Assembly: GCF_013870595.1 (NCBI RefSeq)
Contig: NZ_JACBWZ010000006.1
Coordinates: 1 to 34,631 of the forward strand
Length of the DNA stretch: 34,631 nucleotides
Direction of reading: 5' to 3'
Source of the DNA: Streptomyces sp. WELS2
GTDB lineage: Bacteria; Actinomycetota; Actinomycetes; Streptomycetales; Streptomycetaceae
The translations under genes were made by a program, and so were the position numbers. Below are positions 57-7,282 of the stretch, one piece after another; position 1 is the stretch's first letter; each line of letters opens with the position of its first letter. The notes beneath the pieces were generated by a model, which was not told the DNA's origin, ran no database searches, and worked only from the letters and a program-made list of their open reading frames with translations.

Positions 57-1982
57 CTACGCCGGGGCGAGCGGCTCCGGCGCGGCGGTGTCGGCGAAGG
101 CGTGCCAGGCGAGGTGGCCGGGCAGGTCGGGCAGGGGGACGGTATGGGTCTCCCAGTGCGCGTTGGCGGCGACGTGCACGGCGTCGTCGCCGAGCCGCAG
201 CGTCCACTGCAGCAGCGGGACGCCGTCGACGGGGATGGCGGCCAGGCCCCGGGCGTCGGGCGAACGCAGCGCCGGATGGCCGTGCCGGAAGGCGGTCAGC
301 GCCCGGGTGAAGTTCAGCAGCCCGGCGTTGTCCGCGGCGAGGTCCCAGTCGACCCAGGACAGCTCGTCGTGGCAGTACGCGTTGTTGTTGCCCTGCTGGC
401 TGCGGCCGAACTCGTCGCCGGCGGTGAGCATCGGCACGCCGCGGCCGGCCAGCAGCAGGACGAGGGCGTTGCGGACCTGCCGGGAGCGCAGCCGCAGCAC
501 CTCGGGGTCGTCGGTCGGGCCCTCGGTCCCGCAGTTCCACGAGTGGTTGGTCCGCTCGCCGTCGAGGTTGTCCTCGCCGTTGGCGTGGTTGTGCTTGTCG
601 TTGTACGCGTACAGGTCGTGCAGGGTGAACCCGTCGTGGCAGGTGATGAAGTTGACGGAGGCCCGGGGCCCGCGCCGCCCGTACAGGTCCAGGGAGCCGA
701 GGACGCGTGCGCCGAGGTCCCGGGCCGCCTCCTGGTCTCCCTGGAGGAAGCGGCGCGCCGAGTCGCGGAAACGGCCGTTCCACTCCGACCAGCGCCCGTA
801 GTGCGGGAAGCTGCCGACCTGGTACAGGCCGCCCGCGTCCCACGCCTCGGCGATGAGTTTGGTGTCGCGCAGCACCGGGTCGGCGGCGATCGCCTCCAGC
901 AGGGGAGGGTCGGCCAGCGGGGTGCCGTCCTGGCCGCGGACCAGCGCGGAAGCCAGGTCGAAGCGGAACCCGTCGATGTGGAACTCGGTCACCCAGTGGC
1001 GCAGGCAGTCCAGGACGAAGGCCCGGCCGACGGGGCTGTTGGCGTTGAAGGTGTTGCCGGTGCCGCTGAAGTTCAGATAGCCGCCGTCCGGTGCCAGCAG
1101 GTAGAAGCCGGGGTTGTCCAGCCCCCGGAAGGAGAGGGTGCGGCCGCGTTCGTCGCCCTCCGCGGTGTGATTGAAGACCACGTCGAGGACGACCTCGATG
1201 CCGGCCGCGTGCAGTCGCCTGACCGTGTCCTTCAGTTCGGAGGCGGCGTCGTCCGAAGCGGCGTAGCCGGCCTTCGGCGCGAAGTAGCCGAACGTGTTGT
1301 AGCCCCAGTAGTTGAACAGCCGCCGGTCCTCGCTGCTGCGGGCGTTGTCCGACTCGTCGAACTCGAACACCGGGAGCAGTTCGACGCAGTTCACGCCGAG
1401 GTCGAGCAGGTGGGGGATCTTCTCGGCCAGGCCGGCGAAGGTCCCGGGCCGGCGCACCCCGGAGGAGGGGTGGCGGGTGAAGCCGCGCACGTGCAGCTCG
1501 TAGACGACGAGGTCCTCGACCGGGATCCCGGGCGAGGTGTCGCCCTGCCAGTCGAAGGCGTCGCCGGCGACGACCCGGGACCGGTACGGGTACGGGTCGA
1601 GCGAGTACGGCGCGCCCCAGGTCTCCCGGCCGCCGAAGGCCCGCGCGTAGGGGTCGGCCAGGACGGTGCGGGCGTCGAAGCGCAGCCCGCGGCCGGGGGC
1701 GTACGGGCCGTCGGCGCGGTACCCGTACTCGATGGCCTCGGGATCGAGGCCGCCGACGAGCATGCTGTAGACACCGCCGACCCGGCAGTGGCGGGGGAAG
1801 ACCACCTCCGCGAACGGCTCGGGCGCGCCACGCCGGTACAGCACCAGGGTCATGGAGGTGGCCCCGCCGGAGGGGATCGAGAAGTTGATCCCCTCCGGGG
1901 TGACGGTGGCGCCGTAGGGCAGCGGCACGCCGGGGCTCACCCGCAGGTCGGCGGTGCGGGGCGGAGCGGCGGCGGTGGTCAC
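57..1982 (-). CDS. glgX: Glycogen debranching enzyme GlgX (isoamylase-type)
   Basis: 641 aa, a normal length for GlgX/TreX. It hydrolyses alpha-1,6 branch points of glycogen or limit dextrins in the cytoplasm. The N-terminal part (about residues 15-130) fits the CBM48/early-set domain, followed by the GH13 barrel. Visible GH13 motifs are DVVFNHT (268-273), GFRFD with nucleophile D342, AEAWD with acid/base E379, and ITCHD with D450. The GTG start overlaps the stop of the STAS gene by 4 nt, so the two are translationally coupled. It is the last gene of a six-gene minus-strand unit starting near 7282. Only 56 bp lie beyond its stop and I saw no terminator there. It complements the GlgE-route genes just upstream by trimming branched glucan. 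Confidence 0.95.
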   Translation of the reverse strand: MTTAAAPPRTADLRVSPGVPLPYGATVTPEGINFSIPSGGATSMTLVLYRRGAPEPFAEVVFPRHCRVGGVYSMLVGGLDPEAIEYGYRADGPYAPGRGLRFDARTVLADPYARAFGGRETWGAPYSLDPYPYRSRVVAGDAFDWQGDTSPGIPVEDLVVYELHVRGFTRHPSSGVRRPGTFAGLAEKIPHLLDLGVNCVELLPVFEFDESDNARSSEDRRLFNYWGYNTFGYFAPKAGYAASDDAASELKDTVRRLHAAGIEVVLDVVFNHTAEGDERGRTLSFRGLDNPGFYLLAPDGGYLNFSGTGNTFNANSPVGRAFVLDCLRHWVTEFHIDGFRFDLASALVRGQDGTPLADPPLLEAIAADPVLRDTKLIAEAWDAGGLYQVGSFPHYGRWSEWNGRFRDSARRFLQGDQEAARDLGARVLGSLDLYGRRGPRASVNFITCHDGFTLHDLYAYNDKHNHANGEDNLDGERTNHSWNCGTEGPTDDPEVLRLRSRQVRNALVLLLAGRGVPMLTAGDEFGRSQQGNNNAYCHDELSWVDWDLAADNAGLLNFTRALTAFRHGHPALRSPDARGLAAIPVDGVPLLQWTLRLGDDAVHVAANAHWETHTVPLPDLPGHLAWHAFADTAAPEPLAPA

Positions 1983-2314
1983 GGGGCCAGCACCCGGATC
2001 GCGTCGTCGACGCTGTCGGCCACCAGGACGCTGTCCAGGAAGCCGGTGGCCGCCAGGACGCTGCGGGCCTCCTCGGGCATGGCCGCCAGGGCCAGCGGAA
2101 CACCGTGGGCACGGGCCCGGTAGTAGAGCAGCAGCAGCACCCGCAGGCCCGCGCTGGACAGGTAGCCGACGCGTCCGAGGTCGAGCAGCAGTTGCCCGCT
2201 GTCCGGCGTGAGCGCCTCCAGGTTCGCGCTGGCCTCGGCGGCGGTCACCCCGTCGAGGTCGCCGTCGACGACGACCACCGTGACGGTGCCCCGCATGTAC
2301 TTCTCGACCTGCAT
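1979..2314 (-). CDS. STAS-domain anti-sigma factor antagonist
   Basis: 111 aa, a single STAS domain. Proteins of this type (SpoIIAA/RsbV/BldG class) release a sigma factor by binding an anti-sigma kinase, and are switched off by phosphorylation of a conserved Ser or Thr. The signature is DLGRVGYLSSAGLRVLL (residues 45-61), with S53/S54 at the expected phosphorylation site. ATG start, with a GGAG-type site in TCGGAGATATGAC upstream, 13 nt after the epimerase stop. Its own stop overlaps the glgX start by 4 nt. A STAS protein inside a metabolic operon suggests a link to a sigma-factor or stress partner switch. No partner kinase or anti-sigma gene is in this window. Confidence 0.9.
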   Translation of the reverse strand: MQVEKYMRGTVTVVVVDGDLDGVTAAEASANLEALTPDSGQLLLDLGRVGYLSSAGLRVLLLLYYRARAHGVPLALAAMPEEARSVLAATGFLDSVLVADSVDDAIRVLAP

Positions 2315-2327
2315 GTCATATCTCCGA

Positions 2328-6419: not shown

Positions 6420-6457
6420 GCGCGTTACCTCCAGGTCAGTCGTGACGGGCTCGGCTG

Positions 6458-7282
6458 CTACCAGCCGTAGCGGCGCAGGCCCGCCTCCAGGACCTCCACC
6501 AGCTTCTCGCCGGAGAGGAAGGAGTCAGGCGTCGAACGGGCGGTGATGAACGGGTAGTCGACGAGGACCGAGGTCTCCTTGCCGACGTTTCCGTGGAAGC
6601 GGCCGTCGGGGCCGGTGGCGTCGCGCAGGATGTACTCCAGCGGGTACGGCGGCGGGCCCATGTTGAAGTCGACGCCGAGGAACCCGGTGCCGTCCTTGTA
6701 GTCGTACTCCTTGCAGTGGCCGGTGACGTGCTTGCCCCAGATGATGCTCTCGCGGGTCTCCCAGTCACGGGCGAACGCGAGGGTGGCGATGCCGTAGCAC
6801 TCGGCCAGGATCGGCTTGTCCGCGCGGACGAAGGCGAGGACCAGCTCGTGCAGCCGGCCGTTGTTGGCCAGGTCGACGATCGGGCCGCTGCCGCCGACGA
6901 TGACCAGCGCGTCGTACTGTTCGATGTCGGTGTCGAGCGTGGCCAGCTCCCGGTAGTACGCCTCCATCAGGCGCAGCGGGTTGGGGTCGCTGTCGTAGGG
7001 GCGCTCCGGGATCCACGCCGACAGGTCGAGCGGGTTGTCGAGGCGGTCCGACTCGTCCAGTTCCCGGGCGGCCACGGCCACCTCGGGGGTGGTCACGGAG
7101 CGGCCGAGCGGCGGGTCGATGTATCCCGGGTCCAGGCTCGGCGGGAGCGCCTGCGGACGCTTGCCGGTGGGTGTGGCGAAGACGCTCTCGTACCCGTTGC
7201 GGTCGAAGGCGACCAGCGGGCCGAGGAGTTCCTCGCCCCAGTAACCGTACTCCGAGAGTACGATCAGTACCTTCCTTGTCAT
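6458..7282 (-). CDS. DJ-1/PfpI family protein, Hsp31-like size
   Basis: 274 aa from the ATG preceded by CCAGGAGACGG. An upstream in-frame extension to 7390 is rejected because it has no ribosome-binding site and a non-coding look. The N-terminal MTRKVLIVLSEYGYWGEE carries the family acidic residue near E17/E18. The nucleophile elbow is ILAECYGIATLAF with C162, preceded by DALVIVGGSGPIVDL. The length and the long insert at residues 40-120 resemble the ThiJ/Hsp31-type class (glyoxalase III or chaperone) more than the shorter neighbour at 4135-4800. It is the first gene of the six-gene unit, so the promoter should lie in 7283-7445. Confidence 0.85.
   Translation of the reverse strand: MTRKVLIVLSEYGYWGEELLGPLVAFDRNGYESVFATPTGKRPQALPPSLDPGYIDPPLGRSVTTPEVAVAARELDESDRLDNPLDLSAWIPERPYDSDPNPLRLMEAYYRELATLDTDIEQYDALVIVGGSGPIVDLANNGRLHELVLAFVRADKPILAECYGIATLAFARDWETRESIIWGKHVTGHCKEYDYKDGTGFLGVDFNMGPPPYPLEYILRDATGPDGRFHGNVGKETSVLVDYPFITARSTPDSFLSGEKLVEVLEAGLRRYGW

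Follow-up and report, generated by a model that had tools for sequence, protein, structure and literature searches.

The present analysis concerns a cluster of six genes at one end of a 34,631-nucleotide (nt) stretch of DNA from Streptomyces sp. WELS2 (hereafter the window), which constitutes one whole contig (G000:C972) of a 7.17-Mb genome. The six genes run head to tail on the minus strand from position 7282 to 57. The first encodes a DJ-1/PfpI superfamily protein of the ThiJ_like class (DJA, 6458-7282, 274 amino acids (aa); Pfam PF17124 and PF01965), and is followed by genes for a benzoylformate-decarboxylase-like enzyme dependent on thiamine diphosphate (ThDP; 4812-6419, 535 aa), a second DJ-1/PfpI protein, of the PfpI class (DJB, 4135-4800, 221 aa), an epimerase/isomerase-like protein of the AGE type (2328-4145, 605 aa), a STAS domain protein of the anti-sigma factor antagonist type (1979-2314, 111 aa, with Ser53-Ser54), and a GlgX/isoamylase-type glycogen debranching enzyme (57-1982, 641 aa, GTG start). 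Gaps of 38, 11, and 13 nt separate DJA from ThDP, ThDP from DJB, and AGE from STAS, respectively, while DJB overlaps AGE by 11 nt and STAS overlaps GlgX by 4 nt. Pfam assigned all six products to the stated families, and together with the coordinates this bears out the genes, positions, gaps, and overlaps given in a preliminary description of the locus made from the sequence alone. The six genes are presumably co-transcribed. A sigma-70 promoter scan of window positions 1-7700 returned no candidate, and a terminator scan returned two against 1.5 expected.

The contig stops 56 nt past the glgX stop codon, and because the window is a complete contig ending there, the unit is cut at its 3' end. 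Searching this genome with a PP2C gene taken from the cluster of a relative identified contig G000:C996 (3,819 bases), which carries on its minus strand the genes for a second STAS protein (STAS2, 3452-3772, starting 47 nt from the contig end), a HATPase_c_2 kinase of the RsbW/SpoIIAB-like type (3048-3455), and a SpoIIE-type PP2C phosphatase (1841-3043), the latter two assigned by Pfam. STAS2-kinase-PP2C is the usual actinobacterial order, and C996 probably adjoins the window end after glgX. This adjacency is backed by an Umezawaea locus (L099), in which a single contig holds TreS (part)-Mak-GlgB-DJA-ThDP-DJB-AGE-STAS-GlgX-STAS-kinase-PP2C and about 120 nt separate the GlgX match from the STAS2 match. 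On C996 (L160) the phosphatase gene is followed by a gene for a short-chain dehydrogenase (SDR; 936-1700, minus strand), and SDR genes flank two cyanobacterial copies as well.

To assess conservation, one genome per species was scanned with AGE across 84,980 species, giving at least 584 matching stretches. The 80 loci kept were the best-scoring of these 584, so they favour close relatives, and they are not independent; three came from one strain (Saccharothrix sp. ALI-22-I), seven had short flanks and 73 full flanks, and the 23 genus labels were taken from record titles, with labels of metagenome-assembled genomes (MAGs) included. Results revealed all six genes in 59/80 loci and 18/23 genus labels (56 of the 73 loci with full flanks). 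DJA and ThDP lay upstream of AGE in 71/80 and 70/80 loci, respectively, and DJB was found in 76/80; downstream of AGE were GlgX on the same strand (77/80), the second STAS (75/80), and the first STAS (69/80). Kinase and PP2C genes lay on the same strand no more than 7 kb downstream in 69/80 and 68/80 loci, respectively; irrespective of strand and of place in the locus, the count was 70/80 for each. The five enzyme genes were found together in 68/80 loci, and in all 68 they occupied a single strand in the order DJA-ThDP-DJB-AGE-GlgX, with position left unconstrained; when the kinase and PP2C were added, the order was kept in 60/61, L055 departing from it in that PP2C comes first. These counts supersede a nine-gene order of 56/56, a figure in part predetermined, since the matches for STAS, kinase, and PP2C had been picked by their position relative to AGE or GlgX. 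Across the 80 loci, the median match-to-stop gap between consecutive genes was 16-53 nt. A chance neighbourhood is ruled out by the single order in 68/68 loci, and a canonical glycogen operon with random neighbours was also rejected. The preliminary description had proposed that the genes form a unit and had named, as evidence to the contrary, conservation of the order in no other genome; gene-neighbourhood comparison found the order conserved. The unit is thus real, but it probably comprises more than six genes, with the second STAS, kinase, and PP2C genes usually coming next.

The composition of the cluster varied among relatives. A GMC oxidoreductase, with SnoaL-like proteins, stood between ThDP and DJB in 25/80 loci, and many of the GMC-bearing loci also had a VOC protein between DJB and AGE. 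SnoaL/GMC and VOC insertions were observed in L093, L095, L098, L100-L101, L103-L108, L110, L112-L113, L116-L120, L123, and L125-L126, and SnoaL/GMC/VOC-like genes lay elsewhere nearby in, for example, L050, L052, and L054. In six loci (L072, L076, L082, L087, L090, and L115), AGE-STAS-GlgX was present and neither DJA nor ThDP was found in the stretch read; in L072 the kinase and PP2C were far off on the opposite strand. DJA and ThDP were displaced to about 4 kb beyond GlgX in L081, L049 had no ThDP match, and L063 had no GlgX match. Judged by gene content, DJA and ThDP therefore look accessory. A MinD/ParA-like ATPase gave a match in 46/80 loci, and its gene comes after the phosphatase (or GlgX) in many copies, including plasmid copies (e.g., L082:16593-17360, L169:16446-17213, and L168:13653-14414). 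Within the genus, 18/101 genomes, the own genome included, carried this AGE, and a phylum-wide AGE search of 396 genomes gave nine matches, two of them full-length (in the own genome and in another member of the genus) and seven weak and partial. Five same-genus loci (L041-L045, from G017, G011, G003, G077, and G068) had GlgX followed by an AGE 57-58% identical, with no DJA, ThDP, or STAS match in the stretch read.

A comparable gene set is found in cyanobacteria. According to the available excerpts of two reports, the operon slr1852-1862 of Synechocystis sp. PCC 6803 is salt-repressed and encodes an N-acetylglucosamine 2-epimerase (Slr1855), an anti-sigma antagonist (Slr1856), GlgX, and IcfG (PMC8670252), with slr1857 encoding an isoamylase, and Synechocystis mutants show carbon/glucose growth defects (PMC12329169). 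Slr1861 is described there both as an anti-SigC factor and as the kinase of Slr1856 and Slr1859, and IcfG (Slr1860) as the phosphatase of Slr1856 and not of Slr1859 (PMC12329169). A search of 146 genomes from the phylum to which a Pseudanabaenaceae MAG belongs gave 13 genomes with an AGE match, from which nine regions (L140-L148) were counted; kept apart were L122 (G490, a 5-kb contig), L151 (G634), and L150 (a second place in a counted genome), and G496 and G504, known from short loci only, lay outside the count. DJ-1-AGE-STAS occurred on one strand in 9/9 regions, accompanied by GlgX in 8/9, the kinase in 8/9, PP2C in 7/9, and a detected second STAS in 4/9, with the DJ-1 gene directly upstream of AGE. 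The same placement of DJ-1 presumably holds in Synechocystis itself. AGE of the window was 55-58% identical to those of L140-L148, aligned over its full length. Region L143 reads DUF4432-DJ-1-AGE-STAS-GlgX-STAS-PP2C-kinase-GH13/CBM20, which equals slr1855-slr1861 by locus number as given in the excerpts (PMC12329169, PMC8670252).

Given the agreement of L143 with the Synechocystis locus numbers (slr1858 aside), the cluster can be assigned to the icfG type. In the window, AGE with its extra N-terminal domain is followed by STAS and then GlgX on the same strand, DJB lies directly upstream of AGE and overlaps it, and the second STAS, PP2C, and RsbW-like kinase are encoded in the same genome on the separate contig C996. 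The cluster is thus an actinobacterial variant of the known icfG operon, extended by DJA and the ThDP enzyme, and not a wholly new system. The six genes are likely the front of an actinobacterial icfG-type operon, in which a carbon-reserve unit (GlgX and AGE) is encoded with a partner-switching module. Both forms combine AGE, STAS, GlgX/isoamylase, a second STAS, PP2C, and an RsbW-like kinase, which the excerpts place in one Synechocystis operon. The actinobacterial form differs in adding DJA and the ThDP enzyme in front, in having the kinase before PP2C (as in some cyanobacterial regions), and in that Pfam gave no sensor domain for either of the two actinobacterial phosphatases scanned, and the window unit further differs in sitting downstream of a GlgE-TreS-Mak-GlgB set. 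The preliminary description had regarded every enzyme besides GlgX as foreign to known glycogen metabolism, which is not fully accurate, as AGE and STAS both stand with GlgX in the Synechocystis icfG operon as excerpted. No description of the actinobacterial form was found in the open-access literature searched, including a search for icfG with Streptomyces.

The module, comprising two STAS proteins, the RsbW/SpoIIAB-like kinase, and the SpoIIE-type PP2C phosphatase, resembles SpoIIAA/SpoIIAB/SpoIIE and RsbV/RsbW/RsbU in its STAS protein with a Ser pair, HATPase_c_2 kinase, and SpoIIE-family PP2C, and differs in having two STAS proteins and in standing alongside metabolic genes. Phosphorylatable serines were conserved in the first STAS (Ser53 and Ser54 each in 69/70 rows) and in the second (Ser56 in 43/76 and Ser57 in 74/76). 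As read from gene content and residues, its regulatory role is well supported, and the earlier proposal of STAS as a regulatory input is strengthened by the conserved Ser pair and by the kinase and phosphatase genes usually coming next.

The AGE protein combines an OB-like domain (residues ~8-103) with an (alpha/alpha)6 barrel (~103-537). In an AlphaFold2 model (pLDDT 89, pTM 0.92), the predicted barrel best matched the D-mannose isomerase 5x32 (Z 37.7, root-mean-square deviation (rmsd) 2.5, 378 residues aligned), followed by cellobiose 2-epimerases (Z ~35) and the Runella glucose 2-epimerase (Z 34), and membership of the superfamily is also indicated by Pfam PF07221 (77.6 bits; cut-off 23.4). 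The N-terminal domain, folded alone (pLDDT 86.8), resembled OB folds with modest scores, namely PriB (Z 9.7, rmsd 2.5, 76 aligned), SSB (Z 9.4-9.6), and tRNA-synthetase anticodon domains (Z ~9), so the extra domain noted in the preliminary description appears as an OB-like barrel in the predicted fold. The window AGE shares the (alpha/alpha)6 barrel with cellobiose 2-epimerase, D-mannose isomerase, and the Runella enzyme (Z 34-38), and differs from them in its N-terminal OB-like domain, its C-terminal extension, Lys379, and an identity of at most 20%. His376, His517, and Lys379 were invariant in 39/39 sequences, which came from actinobacteria, from cyanobacteria, and from a single Trueperaceae MAG. 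The His pair has catalytic roles in the AGE superfamily, as established for cellobiose epimerases, and in the family at large the first His is typically followed, three positions on, by a Glu (GHxxE); the window AGE reads GHNLK379 where the Runella enzyme (8h1k) has GHNSE.

GlgX carries a CBM48 domain, an alpha-amylase domain, and the catalytic triad, like other GlgX/isoamylase (GH13) enzymes, with D342 and E379 kept in 77/78 rows and D450 in 76/78 (the remainder being gaps). It scored highest against chloroplast isoamylase 1 (9xvi; 568.7 bits, residues 7-637), ahead of S. venezuelae GlgX (7u39; 496.1 bits, residues 13-574) and 2wsk (390.5 bits), although this lead is partly due to the longer aligned stretch. 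By score it is nearer to chloroplast isoamylase 1 than to S. venezuelae GlgX, and its score for the TIGR02100 equivalog (625.6 bits) falls just under the cut-off of 640.9.

Both DJ-1 proteins are recognized by PF01965 (34.7 and 64.4 bits; cut-off 26.6), with no significant BLASTP similarity between DJA and DJB. C162 and E17 of DJA were kept in 73/73 rows, and C129 and H130 of DJB in 59/59; rows with a stop codon in the matched span had been dropped from the DJ-1, ThDP, STAS, and GlgX counts alike, and the DJB count rests on 59 rows including the window. The ThDP enzyme resembles benzoylformate decarboxylase over its whole length and keeps the Glu and the first His, and its T28, E51, H74, V282, and F283 were invariant (72/72 rows). 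It scored 328.2 bits against the benzoylformate decarboxylase model NF005485 (cut-off 493) and has Val282-Phe283 for the His-Gln of 6m2z, and Thr28 for Ser, so that Val282 occupies the aligned place of the second catalytic His. Val282-Phe283 (at ~5571-5576) aligns with the Val-Phe of the best solved match, 6a50, presumably an engineered glycolaldehyde-forming variant. From the residues, Val282-Phe283 fits small-aldehyde chemistry, and if 6a50 is such a variant, the ThDP enzyme may join one- or two-carbon aldehydes.

Copies of the cluster were also detected on plasmid records, 21 of which had an AGE match; in 17 of them the match spanned 80% or more of AGE. The regions of eight records were read; their gene tables are incomplete, so any presence or absence given here is as annotated. 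A Streptomyces plasmid carried the full set DJA-ThDP-DJB-AGE-STAS-GlgX-STAS-kinase-PP2C-MinD, and a Deinococcus plasmid the same set with the kinase not annotated. On a Runella plasmid, ThDP was accompanied by DJ-1-VOC-AGE-STAS-GlgX-STAS, an ATP-binding protein, and a large hypothetical protein, with PP2C not annotated, and the run DJ-1-VOC-AGE-STAS-GlgX-STAS is kept on both the Deinococcus and Runella plasmids. Nostoc NIES-3756 had DJ-1-AGE-STAS-GlgX-MinD, its copy also bearing aldose 1-epimerase and glucose 1-dehydrogenase annotations, and in Gemmobacter, Gloeothece, N. edaphicum, and Gloeocapsopsis GlgX preceded AGE with no STAS listed. All eight plasmid regions have GlgX next or close to AGE, and AGE and GlgX thus form a near-constant pair. 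In an AGE tree (95 rows, quick method), the window grouped with Umezawaea and two Saccharothrix loci, for which an SH-like approximate likelihood ratio test (SH-aLRT) value of 89 is not strong, inside a 23-row set of mostly Pseudonocardiaceae and Streptosporangiaceae (96) and apart from the main Streptomyces group. In these three neighbours of the window on the tree, too, the cluster is immediately preceded by glg genes that point the same way. Transfer of the cluster into this Streptomyces is plausible from the grouping.

If the six genes are the front of an icfG-type operon, a carbon or stress status signal would act on the PP2C phosphatase, which together with the kinase would set STAS phosphorylation at the conserved Ser, as there is precedent in Synechocystis, where the excerpted report describes a kinase acting on both STAS proteins and a phosphatase acting on one (PMC12329169). 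The kinase, free or bound, would in turn control a sigma factor or the cluster enzymes, and the switch would thus govern transcription, enzyme use, or both at times when glycogen has to be mobilized. Enzymes of the GlgX family cut branches. In the window, GlgX would debranch a glycogen-like glucan, including the product of the GlgE pathway, to give reducing malto-oligosaccharides, and AGE could then act at C2 of the sugar at the reducing end, turning glucose into mannose or a keto-sugar, a role suggested by its fold, by the invariance of its His residues, and by how regularly it is paired with GlgX. Small carbonyl compounds might be processed or detoxified by the DJ-1 proteins and the ThDP enzyme. 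A more specific and distinctly tentative proposal is that GlgX works with the OB-domain AGE as a conserved machine of two enzymes, which debranches glycogen and remodels the reducing ends (e.g., to mannose or fructose) via an altered active site with Lys379. If true, this machine would represent a way of using glycogen that has not been described before, in many cases under an icfG-type switch, common to Actinomycetota, Cyanobacteriota, Deinococcota, Pseudomonadota, and Bacteroidota, and adjoining, in this Streptomyces, the GlgE pathway by which the glucan is made. In cyanobacteria, the icfG operon has been tied to carbon control. The presence of such a block in actinomycetes, which are heterotrophic and genetically tractable, takes photosynthesis out of the problem, and the actinobacterial form separates the near-invariant AGE and GlgX, usually with the switch, from the accessories, so that the function of AGE (the Slr1855 family) and of the switch becomes directly testable.

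Several observations weigh against the assignment to an icfG-type operon with a linked switch. Comparison of the ends of C996 and the window found no overlap common to both, and in four loci with full flanks (L058, L079, L109, and L111) kinase, PP2C, and first STAS were not found, although each keeps a STAS match (33-37%) after GlgX. One of the four, the Saccharothrix locus L058, is a near relative of the window on the AGE tree, and its STAS match after GlgX is 34%. Among the cluster genes scanned, which were not searched systematically for this purpose, none encoded a sigma factor. In the cyanobacterial comparison, slr1858 had no identified counterpart in L143, DJB was only 27-31% identical to the cyanobacterial DJ-1, DJA and ThDP were not found in L140-L148, and L146 lacked a GlgX match. 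Region L151 has a distant AGE (39%), a DJA match (63%), and a ThDP match (31%), with no GlgX or STAS match. The L143 phosphatase apparently has GAF domains (by eye), whereas the two actinobacterial phosphatases scanned were SpoIIE only (Pfam). Moreover, salt repression of the Synechocystis operon, as stated in the excerpt, does not fit a simple stress-induced role (PMC8670252), and C2 epimerase activity is not assured, since Lys379 stands where 8h1k has Glu.

Other explanations of the gene content were also considered. The core of the cluster could be reactive aldehyde or dicarbonyl chemistry by the ThDP enzyme and the two DJ-1 proteins, tied to alpha-glucan breakdown. The frequent presence of DJA and ThDP upstream of AGE, the fully kept Cys/Glu of DJA and Cys/His of DJB, the invariant Val282-Phe283 with the same pair in 6a50, and the VOC (glyoxalase-fold), GMC oxidoreductase, and SnoaL genes joining the cluster in many loci are all consistent with it. 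However, AGE-STAS-GlgX occurs without a DJA or ThDP match in six loci, with both displaced in L081 and not found in L140-L148, so aldehyde chemistry is not the invariant part; as no substrate can be inferred either, it is rather unlikely to be the core. Alternatively, the cluster might be a biosynthetic island (GlgX, AGE, GMC, SDR, SnoaL, EthD, and ThDP) that makes a protective sugar or small molecule from glycogen, is partly plasmid-borne between phyla, and has its production under the switch. Copies on plasmid records of five phyla, the SDR, DUF4432, EthD, and SnoaL genes in cyanobacterial L143, the sugar-converting annotations in Nostoc, and the patchy distribution within the genus point in this direction; against it, the accessory genes vary, the window unit is without GMC, SnoaL, VOC, and EthD, no product is known, and the Synechocystis operon is salt-repressed rather than induced in the excerpted account (PMC8670252). 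An island of this kind is possible but doubtful.

A selfish operon, whose order would be kept by inheritance or transfer in one piece while its enzymes serve unrelated pathways, would account for the grouping of the window AGE with Pseudonocardiaceae, off the main Streptomyces group, and for the plasmid copies. It is nevertheless improbable, as shuffling would be expected at 55-59% AGE identity between phyla, and as GlgX and AGE stay together in two orders, with or without STAS, which indicates functional coupling. Finally, c-di-GMP control of a Streptomyces GlgX has been published for S. venezuelae, and the excerpt of that study adds that a paralogue without the motif does not bind (PMC9530166). 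If such control applied to the window GlgX, STAS would be incidental; yet in the alignment with 7u39, the RETD motif is RHCR and Arg56 is Val in the window protein, and with the motif not kept at the aligned place, c-di-GMP control was rejected as very improbable.

Upstream of the unit, a GlgE-TreS-Mak-GlgB set on the minus strand ends 207 nt before DJA. It comprises the genes for GlgE maltosyltransferase (12668-14629, start uncertain), a TreS-type trehalose synthase (10956-12680, start uncertain, named from its neighbours and domains), Mak/Pep2 maltokinase (9643-10959, Pfam), and GlgB branching enzyme (7490-9691, start uncertain), the last being nearest to DJA. These four enzymes constitute the maltosyltransferase pathway for alpha-glucan, and a second GlgE-like protein, 57% identical to that of the window, is encoded at G000:C575. 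Positions 7446-7484, between glgB and DJA, form a perfect inverted repeat of 19 bp around a 1-nt centre; among perfect repeats with spacers of up to 8 nt it is the longest in the window. It has no T-run and is absent from the terminator-scan output, and it possibly marks a transcript boundary (terminator), an operator, or both. In 15/16 relatives, the 400 nt preceding the DJA match contained no perfect inverted repeat (arm at least 9, spacer at most 12), so a conserved operator 5' of DJA was rejected; L098 was the sole relative with such a repeat, and its sequence differs.

Among the other genes of the window, a DDE-type (DDE_5) transposase-like gene (15815-16999, minus strand) lies near the GlgE genes and looks, by eye only, like cluster c14 in the relatives' flanks. 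A second benzoylformate-decarboxylase-like ThDP enzyme, 33% identical to that of the unit, is encoded at 22266-23927 (minus strand), near genes for a LysR regulator (20384-21295) and a luciferase-like monooxygenase (19469-20359). In addition, a thiolase and a multifunctional enoyl-CoA hydratase/3-hydroxyacyl-CoA dehydrogenase of fatty-acid oxidation are encoded at 30953-34326 (plus strand), apparently unrelated to the unit.

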